Both the position numbers and the translations under genes were made by a program. Under the pieces are notes generated by a model, which made no database searches, was not told where the DNA came from, and was given only the letters and a program-made list of their open reading frames with translations. Shown here one piece after another: positions 61,375-64,000 of a stretch of DNA of 64,000 bases. Source of the stretch: Candidatus Rokuibacteriota bacterium. Lineage in GTDB: Bacteria > Methylomirabilota > Methylomirabilia > Rokubacteriales > CSP1-6. The DNA is taken from NCBI GenBank assembly GCA_003220225.1, contig QHRU01000042.1:25696-89695 (forward strand). Direction: 5' to 3'. Position 1 is the stretch's first letter. Each line of letters opens with the position of its first letter.

Positions 61375-61935
61375 CTATACAGGGCGCGTCGCCGCCGGGC
61401 GCGTCGCCTCGCGGGCGACCGCGCCGAGCATCGCATGGCGGATGAGTCCGCTGAACGGCCGGACCACCAGCCAGTAGAGGCGAAAGCGCCGGCGGCTCGC
61501 CGCGTCGAGGCACTGCACGCGCGTCTCGGTCACGAGGCGCGTCGTCCCCGTACCGAGGGGCTCGACGGCAAAGGTCCACACGACTTTCGCGTTGCCGGAC
61601 TCCCCAAAATCACGGAACGCGTCGGGCCTCACCTTCACGCGTCCGCCCGACGGCATCCAGAAGCGACCGACCAGGCCGAGCGCGACTTCCCGCCCCTCCC
61701 GCTCGCCGAGTCGGAGGAAGCCGCCGGCGACGAGCCGGTCGAGCGTCAGCCGGTGGACCTGCGCGGGCCGCCGAAGGCCGCGCAGCGCGAGCAGCGCGCG
61801 CACGTACCACGCGCCCGCGAAGTCGGCGCGATGCAGCGCCGCCCAGACGGCCGGCGCCGGCGCCGCCACCCTCACCGCGTGGCGCATGAGCACGTCGTAG
61901 GCCGGCAGATAGTCGTCGGCGAGCGTTCCGGCCAC
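61375..61935 (-). CDS. SRPBCC/DUF2867-like small protein
   Basis: A 186-residue protein if started at the GTG at 61935, 5 bp after the stop of the phosphatase-like gene; the gap carries GAGGAGC. An internal ATG (MRHAVRVAAP) is the other candidate. The pattern LPAYDVLMRHAVRVAAPAPAVWAALHRADF, VWTFAVEPLGTGTTRLVTETRVQC and FRLYWLVVRPFSGLIRHAML is that of START/SRPBCC-like ligand-binding folds of the DUF2867 kind. No catalytic residues are recognised. Confidence 0.7.
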   Translation of the reverse strand: MAGTLADDYLPAYDVLMRHAVRVAAPAPAVWAALHRADFAGAWYVRALLALRGLRRPAQVHRLTLDRLVAGGFLRLGEREGREVALGLVGRFWMPSGGRVKVRPDAFRDFGESGNAKVVWTFAVEPLGTGTTRLVTETRVQCLDAASRRRFRLYWLVVRPFSGLIRHAMLGAVAREATRPAATRPV

Positions 61936-61940
61936 GCTCC

Positions 61941-63935
61941 TCAGCGGGCGCTCTGTTGCAGAGCCTCGAACGTCTCGCGCTCCGCCTCCAGCTCCGAGCC
62001 GTCCCGATAGAAGTAGTGCGTGCCGTCGATGCGCGGAAGCGTCTCGTCGCCGTCGGCGCCGTGGGCGAGATACCCCATGCCGGACCTGGTCGCATAGAGC
62101 CGCTCGAGATCGTGCTCGAGGGTCACCGCGGTGCCGTCCGTCGCGTAGGGGTTGACCATCCATTGTGTCGGGTTCGCCTTCACGTAGGCCTCGACCTGCT
62201 CGTACGTATAGGCATTGAAGAACAGCCGTTCGTCACGCCGATACGGGAGGTAGGCGGGCCACTTCTCGGGTGGTCCGTAGTACTCGCCGGCCGTCAAGGA
62301 CCGGAGATAGGCAGCGATGTCCCCGTTGGCGATCCCGATCTCCTTCATCTTCTTCTGATCGAACCAGAGGTTGATGAAGCCCCCGCCGAGACTGATCCTG
62401 GCCCCGAACTTCTTGTCGATCATCTCGAGCAGGGTGCGCAGGAAGAGCCGATGGCCGTTCACGACCTCGGGCATCGGCATCATCCCGTGATCGGCGGTGA
62501 TGGTGACGACGTAGTTGCTCTCGCCCACCCGCGCATTCAGCTTCTCGATCAGCCTGCCGACACAGGCGTCCTGCGCGCGCAGCGCCTCTCGCGCCTCGAG
62601 GCTCTCCAGCCCCCAGCGGTGGGCGGCGTAATCCGTCGGCTTCATGCTCATGTAGATCAGCGAAGTCACGTCGGCCTGATCGATGGGCTCGCGATCCAGC
62701 ATCAGGAGCATGTTGTCGCACTCGAAATTGACGTACGCCGGTGAGAAGCGGACGTTTCCGGTGTCGTCGATCTTGTGTCCCATCCAGACGCCGGTGCCGC
62801 CCGTCAATTCCTGGACGTACGGCGTCGGGCTGCGGCCGCGGAGGTATGCCGGGAAGCTGAAGAGGGCGATGTTCGTCATCAGGCGGTGCTCCTGCTCGTC
62901 GCCCGGAAACTCGGCCCGCAAGGCCGGCGTCCTCGGCCGGTCGAACAGGATCACGATGTGGCTCTTGTTGCCCGGATGATGGGCGGCCCCGTGGCCGACC
63001 ATCCCGATGGCGGCGCGGTCCTGGAAGCTCGTCCCGATCACGACCGGCTTGTGGCGCGCGGTGACGCCGTACTCGTCGGCCAGCGTAGGCGCCTTGACGA
63101 ATTCCGGAGACAGGTCCGGGAACGAGTTGATCACCTGGTTCCGCGCGGGGTCGTAGATCTCGTTGCCGACGATGCGCGTTGCGAAGGGGTAGCCGCCGGT
63201 CCCGATCGCCGCGTGCGACACGGCCGTCGCCGTCTCGAGCTGCGTGACCTTCGCGTCCGTGTACTCGACGCCGCGCGCTGCGAGGCCCTTTATGACCGGC
63301 CAGGCATCGGGCCACGCCTCATAGAGCGTCCGCCCGCCGCCGTCCATCACGATCGTCAGGATGACCTTGGGCCGCTTGGACGTGGGAACGAGCGCCTCCG
63401 TCATCACCCGGCCCATCGAGCCGCCGGGTGGCGGCGTCCCGATCATCCGCGCGTACGTCGGCGCGATGTTCTGCAGCGTGGTCTTGCCGAGCCGGACGCC
63501 TTCCTTGACGAACCCCGGACCGTACAGGACAAACTTGATGTCGGTGTCGTAGTCCCACGACGAGGCGTGCGTCGTCCACATGTGCTTGAGGACGATGACC
63601 TGGTCCGGGTCCTGGGGTCGGACGCCTCGGAAGGAACGCAGGGGGATGTGGCTGAACTCGTCGGCGAAGAACATCCGGTCGGCGACGATCGTGTGACGGG
63701 CGGGAATCATGATGACGTGACCGTTCTGCTCCGCCGCCCAGCTCTGCACGGCGTAGGCGAAGTGCCAAGCATCGTCGCGATCCTGGCTCTTGTACGCCGA
63801 GTCCGACCAGCGCGGACCAATGCTTGTGGCCTGCCCCTGAACACCGGACGCGGGCGCGCGCGCGCCGCAGGCGGCCAGCGCGAAGACGAACACCAGAGGA
63901 ATGAGACTCGCGCCGAAGAAGTGTCTCCTCACCAT
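61941..63935 (-). CDS. Lipoprotein of the alkaline phosphatase/phosphodiesterase superfamily with apparent circular permutation
   Basis: A 664-residue protein with a lipobox (FALAAC, Cys23) and AAGGAGG before the ATG. Superfamily metal and nucleophile positions are complete: D198 (VMDGGG), T237 (TATAVSHA), D435 and H439 (PTDYAAHRWG), D482 and H483 (TADHGMM). The striking point is residues 118-182: TTHASSWDYDTDIKFVLYGP, then LGKTTLQNIAPTYARMIGTP and GRVMTEAL. In PafA/NPP-like enzymes that block, with the last metal-binding His, follows ADHG at the C-terminus; here it precedes the first Asp. A periplasmic phosphomonoesterase or phosphodiesterase is likely. The C-terminal AHGADG (~637) is an alternative last His. 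Confidence 0.82.
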   Translation of the reverse strand: MVRRHFFGASLIPLVFVFALAACGARAPASGVQGQATSIGPRWSDSAYKSQDRDDAWHFAYAVQSWAAEQNGHVIMIPARHTIVADRMFFADEFSHIPLRSFRGVRPQDPDQVIVLKHMWTTHASSWDYDTDIKFVLYGPGFVKEGVRLGKTTLQNIAPTYARMIGTPPPGGSMGRVMTEALVPTSKRPKVILTIVMDGGGRTLYEAWPDAWPVIKGLAARGVEYTDAKVTQLETATAVSHAAIGTGGYPFATRIVGNEIYDPARNQVINSFPDLSPEFVKAPTLADEYGVTARHKPVVIGTSFQDRAAIGMVGHGAAHHPGNKSHIVILFDRPRTPALRAEFPGDEQEHRLMTNIALFSFPAYLRGRSPTPYVQELTGGTGVWMGHKIDDTGNVRFSPAYVNFECDNMLLMLDREPIDQADVTSLIYMSMKPTDYAAHRWGLESLEAREALRAQDACVGRLIEKLNARVGESNYVVTITADHGMMPMPEVVNGHRLFLRTLLEMIDKKFGARISLGGGFINLWFDQKKMKEIGIANGDIAAYLRSLTAGEYYGPPEKWPAYLPYRRDERLFFNAYTYEQVEAYVKANPTQWMVNPYATDGTAVTLEHDLERLYATRSGMGYLAHGADGDETLPRIDGTHYFYRDGSELEAERETFEALQQSAR

Positions 63936-63946
63936 CGCTCCCTCCT

Positions 63947-64000
63947 TCAGATCACGCCGCGGCGGTGGAGGGCCGCCACGGCAGCGGTGTCGAGGCCAAG
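63947..64000 (-). CDS. C-terminus of a probable CaiB/BaiF CoA transferase (partial, 5' end off window)
   Basis: The last 17 codons read LGLDTAAVAALHRRGVI followed by TGA. This matches the typical CaiB/BaiF ending (compare SRDEIAALRAEGVI at the end of the CoA transferase at 41414). It is upstream of the phosphatase-like gene by 11 bp on the same strand. With so few residues the assignment is provisional. Confidence 0.5.
   Translation of the reverse strand, partial: LGLDTAAVAALHRRGVI

Follow-up and report, generated by a model that had tools for sequence, protein, structure and literature searches.

A putative circularly permuted lipoprotein phosphoesterase of the alkaline phosphatase superfamily in Candidatus Rokuibacteriota

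Introduction

PafA (profile NF042991; PDB 5TJ3) serves as a model enzyme in mechanistic work on phosphoryl transfer. In the same branch of the alkaline phosphatase superfamily stands SPAP/PhoK of Sphingomonas (PDB 3Q3Q, 5XWI), whose metal M1 is held by His491, His304 and Asp300 and whose metal M2 is held by His346, Thr89, Asp345 and Asp49 (PMC3145672). The class is defined by a signature of Thr, Asn, Lys and Arg (Thr89, Asn110, Lys171 and Arg173 in SPAP), in which Lys171 contacts the nonbridging phosphate oxygens and, together with Arg173 and Tyr301, blocks the R' site that a diester would need (PMC3145672). Searches of open-licence papers brought up no description of a permuted protein in this superfamily. 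Here, we analyze a gene of Candidatus Rokuibacteriota whose product appears to carry the blocks of a PafA-type enzyme in circularly permuted order. It lies in a stretch of 64,000 nucleotides of contig QHRU01000042.1, called the window below.

Results

The gene occupies positions 61941..63935 of the minus strand (664 amino acids, ATG start, stop included), and a ribosome-binding-site-like sequence, GGAGGGA, is found just 5' of the ATG (63939..63945; all features given here are on the minus strand). Pattern matching predicts a lipoprotein signal peptide at residues 1-23 (63867..63935), with the lipobox LAAC at 20-23; lipobox-like patterns were matched in the same way in three distant relatives discussed below (L023, L055 and L083). 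The main catalytic block, residues 188-500 (62436..63374), is equivalent to the N-terminal two thirds of canonical enzymes and is recognized by PF01663 (Phosphodiest) over residues 193-517 (E=5.9e-28; 98.9 bits, above the gathering cut-off of 23). The PafA equivalog NF042991 scores 115.8 bits, below its curated cut-off of 650. A profile of the permuted proteins (A2) finds PafA as its best PDB match, covering residues 16-414 of that chain at E=5e-33. By alignment, residues 501-581 (62193..62435) are a diverged equivalent of canonical positions ~337-416 and end at AYTYEQVEA, the counterpart of canonical AFTRxxL, where the fold now has its C-terminal limit.

The segment in front of the catalytic block is of particular interest. 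The preliminary description had likened it to the C-terminal end of PafA/NPP-type enzymes, and the likeness to PafA-type enzymes is real: residues 1-190 alone match NF042991 positions 485-553/554 at E=4.9e-10 (aligned residues 113-182), while in the full protein positions 271-376 of the same model are matched by residues 392-497, so that the order is inverted. A separate search of residues 1-190 had been proposed as a check with Pfam models; the match came from the PafA model, and no Pfam match was obtained within these residues. The extent first given for the block, 118-182, lies within the matching region but begins too late, since the block reaches upstream to ~59-70 and this extension includes an (S)GH(V)xM strand that aligns with canonical RSGDI. 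From NF042991, the can1 profile (454-516) and alignments, we place the transposed block at residues 70-187 (63375..63728), containing the equivalents of the canonical RSGD strand, THGSPxxYDT, DIAPT helix and GRVL end. Its last residues, VPTSK (183-187; 63375..63389), form the new linker between the former C-terminus and the former N-terminus. Comparison with the PDB chains by phmmer gives the same picture, with query residues 188-316, then 413-543, then 120-182 following one another along PafA and 186-500, then 119-173, along PhoK/SPAP. In both chains the earlier parts are matched by residues 188-543, and the N-terminal block falls on PafA 472-533 (residues 120-182) and PhoK/SPAP 487-540 (residues 119-173), matches that are weak taken alone (9.6 and 4.5 bits, respectively). 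An independent curated model, PF00884, detects the equivalent block in two relatives, where its positions 255-300/301 are matched by residues 72-119 of L023 and its positions 258-300 by residues 113-155 of L083.

The score that HMMER assigned was unchanged when the sequence was un-permuted, because HMMER sums local matches regardless of their order. We therefore compared a profile of 19 canonical proteins with the same profile written twice end to end, using ten canonical proteins as controls. With the doubled profile all six permuted proteins aligned in a single stretch across the joint and the best stretch gained 34-87 bits: from 118.6 to 166.9 bits for the window protein (P0001), from 126.6 to 176.0 for L003, from 83.6 to 170.6 for L055, from 55.8 to 91.7 for L023, from 51.2 to 95.7 for L083 and from 63.6 to 97.6 for L084. 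None of the ten controls scored higher by running from the former end into the former start. The best-preserved members start and end at canonical 416/417 and are clean circular permutations: L055 covers canonical 416-514, 1-179 and 236-416, so that start and end are both 416; L084 covers 417-509, 2-147 and 248-416 (start 417, end 416); and L023 starts at 417 and ends at 414. In these proteins nothing is duplicated or missing and the block occurs once. Both parts are homologous to the canonical protein in swapped order, the old termini are joined and there is one new cut, which in PafA corresponds to about residues 435-438, in ...LSTDEIWESS / IPEPIKSRVINGYNWKRSGD (A3 alignment), within a loop that is variable in sequence among canonical proteins. 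For the window protein, whose own region past residue ~500 has diverged and carries a tail of ~80 residues, a clean cut is suggested by its relatives.

Whole-genome searches, covering about a thousand distinct genomes, added four permuted proteins and brought the total to six, from four bacterial phyla; the family is rare at this count. The nearest relative (L003/L004, genome G053) is colinear, has the same block order and is 77-80% identical; its contig, QHSQ01000504.1, belongs to Candidatus Rokuibacteriota AR27, a named and separately submitted MAG. The four distant members share ~24-30% identity and come from three further phyla: L023 (G211), L055 (G501), L083 (G869) and L084 (G757), the last two genomes belonging to one order. 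With three block models built from a permuted trio (Hterm, Tcat and DH), all permuted proteins show the order Hterm-Tcat-DH, as opposed to Tcat-DH-Hterm in ~53 other PafA-type proteins, and in each permuted protein Hterm has a single match, located N-terminally. The permuted gene was absent from the two genomes of the same genus that were searched, and the PafA-type proteins encoded in three genomes of this phylum (G084, G010 and G014) have the normal order, with the block C-terminal. No permuted member was found in searches of two other phyla or among the viral contigs, phages and plasmids searched, and the six loci picked up by a motif scan of viral contigs were all without a phosphatase of this type. 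Because six proteins of four phyla share the same rearrangement, we regard it as belonging to an inherited protein family and not as a sequencing artefact. In a separate observation, three proteins from the phylum of genome G122 (L062, L064 and L075) carry canonical PafA-type blocks near the end of ~1000-residue frames, preceded by ~450-500 residues of unexplained N-terminal frame.

A maximum likelihood tree was computed for the six permuted and 40 canonical proteins from the main block only, which the permutation does not move. Blocks were aligned separately, as aligning whole rotated sequences to a canonical HMM misplaced signal peptides and tails. A branch supported at 100/99 separates the six permuted proteins from the 40 canonical ones. 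When one distant outgroup was added the permuted clade was kept at 99/98, with no settled place among the canonical groups.

All the active-site motifs named in the preliminary description are present: D198 (63342..63344; Asp49 of SPAP), the predicted nucleophile T237 (63225..63227; Thr89), D435 and H439 in DYAAH (62619..62633) and D482-H483 in ADHG (62487..62492). These residues are invariant in the six permuted proteins, as is H123 (63567..63569), the predicted zinc M1 ligand, which phmmer aligns with His491 of SPAP and which is also kept in 33/33 canonical proteins. The full set of superfamily ligands is thus in place, with the last metal-binding His, at residue 123, standing before the first metal Asp. 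N258 (63162..63164; Asn110) is found in 5/6 permuted and 40/40 canonical proteins, and R307 (63015..63017; Arg173) is an Arg in 5/6 and 39/40. The remaining residue of the SPAP/PafA signature is replaced: alignments put Q305 (63021..63023) at the position of Lys171, where the six permuted proteins have Q, Q, H, I, Q and Q and all 40 canonical proteins have Lys. An AlphaFold model made from a two-sequence alignment (the two Rokubacteria rows only) had a pLDDT of 30.4 and showed no usable fold.

Beyond the end of the fold, residues 582-664 (61944..62192) form an extra C-terminal tail containing AHGADG. Only the two Rokubacteria members have this tail of ~80 residues; L023, L055, L083 and L084 lack it and all end at canonical AFTxxEL. 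H625 of AHGADG is a Tyr in L003, the 80%-identical homologue, and AHGADG was rejected as a metal site on the basis of this substitution and the lack of the tail outside Rokubacteria. The preliminary description had named a last metal His in AHGADG as a finding that would overturn the permutation, and this objection therefore does not hold. Between the window gene and its Rokubacteria relative dN/dS is 0.15 overall, with 0.14 for the N-terminal block, 0.12 for the main block, 0.14 for residues 501-581 and 0.30 for the tail, which evolves faster. The value for the N-terminal block is similar to that of the main block, and the block is under purifying selection.

Across the six permuted genes there is no conserved operon, the exception being a PF00884 gene directly downstream in G869 and G757. 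These sulfatase-like ORFs (L083:2617-4086:+ and L084:2985-4385:+) lie on the same strand, overlap or abut the permuted gene and have SNESLLSH at the position of the sulfatase CxPSR motif; the pair may form a two-gene operon. In the window, the downstream ORF on the same strand (61378-61947, minus) looks SRPBCC-like by eye and has no Pfam match, and an acyl-CoA dehydrogenase gene is also found downstream. The window reaches the end of its contig (C3 in our numbering), whose final ~150 bases (63850-64000) are repeated as the start of contig C18 (L011, G000:C18:1-12000), which makes the two contigs neighbours. Upstream, on C18, are an ORF named by eye as CaiB/BaiF-like and one for an AMP-binding enzyme.

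Discussion

We propose, with a probability of roughly 0.9, that the product of the window gene is an exported, circularly permuted lipoprotein phosphoesterase belonging to the PafA/SPAP branch, an assignment drawn from sequence comparison. The permutation suggested at the outset is strongly supported at the sequence level by the inverted block order, by ends that meet at one canonical position and by six proteins that form one clade. In this protein the canonical last ~100 residues, with the last zinc-binding His, come first, right behind the signal peptide. A short linker bridges the former C- and N-termini, and the chain ends in what is a surface loop of canonical enzymes, past AFTxxEL and ahead of the helix that leads into RSGD. 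After export and lipidation the protein would most likely fold to the usual alkaline phosphatase core, with the usual two-metal site in which two zinc ions are held by D198, T237, D435, H439, D482, H483 and H123. Catalysis would then proceed by attack of Thr237, a covalent phospho-threonine intermediate and hydrolysis. As for origin, the most likely course is a tandem duplication and in-frame fusion of a pafA-like gene followed by loss of the two outer parts, in which copy one would have gained a new signal peptide and start, and copy two a new stop. No tandem pafA intermediate was seen in our searches. The rearrangement would have happened a single time, and its later spread would have been both vertical and horizontal.

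Several other explanations have to be weighed. The N-terminal block could be a relic of a second, fused phosphatase domain, as had also been suggested, with AHGADG in the extra C-terminal tail supplying the last metal His in ordinary topology. The tail does exist, but its His is replaced in the closest homologue and the four distant members lack it altogether, whereas H123 is kept in all six proteins within a block under purifying selection. Moreover, the Hterm block is found a single time in each permuted protein, N-terminally, and nothing is duplicated or missing in the best-preserved members. We consider this explanation very improbable. An assembly or binning artefact, in the form of a chimeric contig or a frame error, deserves even less weight and can be practically dismissed. 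The gene does lie at the end of its contig, where C18 overlaps it over ~150 bases, but the joint between the blocks is ~600 bases from that end, inside an open frame of 664 codons, and dN/dS is 0.12-0.14 on both of its sides. Five other genomes, the MAG with contig QHSQ01000504.1 among them, have this joint as well, and these independent genomes rule out an assembly artefact.

Accepting that the block order is real, the N-terminal block could pack onto a second copy of the protein, by domain swapping or in a dimer, giving a two-part enzyme. The linker between the blocks is short (5 residues in the window protein), which might be thought to favour such an arrangement, but it is short in all six proteins and joins the natural ends directly, as would be expected of spatial neighbours, so that we think a two-part enzyme improbable. 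A further alternative concerns function only and is compatible with the permutation, namely that these proteins are ordinary PafA-like phosphomonoesterases with unchanged specificity in which loss of the Lys was neutral. Consistent with this, the Thr, Asn and Arg of the signature are mostly retained. However, the Lys is present in 40/40 canonical and 0/6 permuted proteins, and in SPAP it makes a direct phosphate contact and acts sterically against diesters (PMC3145672). Unchanged specificity is therefore a rather doubtful reading, although one to be taken seriously.

From the distribution of this Lys we infer that the substrate specificity of the permuted clade has probably shifted; replacement of the phosphate-binding residue (by Q305 here) may have changed substrate preference, possibly towards diesters. 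Taken together, we lean towards the view that these proteins are an undescribed natural permuted family of one origin, spread over at least four phyla, that has lost the monoesterase Lys and forms a functionally distinct class of phosphoesterases. A natural permutant that keeps all its ligands and has moved one zinc ligand from the C-terminal to the N-terminal part provides a test of the extent to which chain order matters for the fold and the bimetal site, and the consistent loss of the Lys offers a natural experiment on monoester versus diester specificity. As the transposed block of the window protein is invisible to Pfam, more such proteins may hide under generic phosphatase names.

Among the described systems, PafA shares with the permuted proteins the blocks, the metal ligands, the Thr nucleophile, the Asn and the Arg, and differs in having its C-terminal ~100 residues in their usual place, the Lys of the KDR motif intact and no lipobox. 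SPAP/PhoK has the equivalents of the same residues (Asp49, Thr89, Asp300/His304, Asp345/His346 and His491); unlike it, the permuted family is without the Lys of the Thr, Asn, Lys and Arg signature and its block order is permuted. The type I phosphodiesterases, or NPPs, resemble the family in scoring above the PF01663 cut-off and in being without the Lys, but the permuted proteins are closer to PafA in sequence, keep the Arg of the KDR motif and are permuted. Finally, similarity to the sulfatases is at the level of the superfamily, with the C-terminal segment of PF00884 detecting the transposed block in L023 and L083, whereas the permuted family has a Thr nucleophile, no CxPSR motif and a permuted order.
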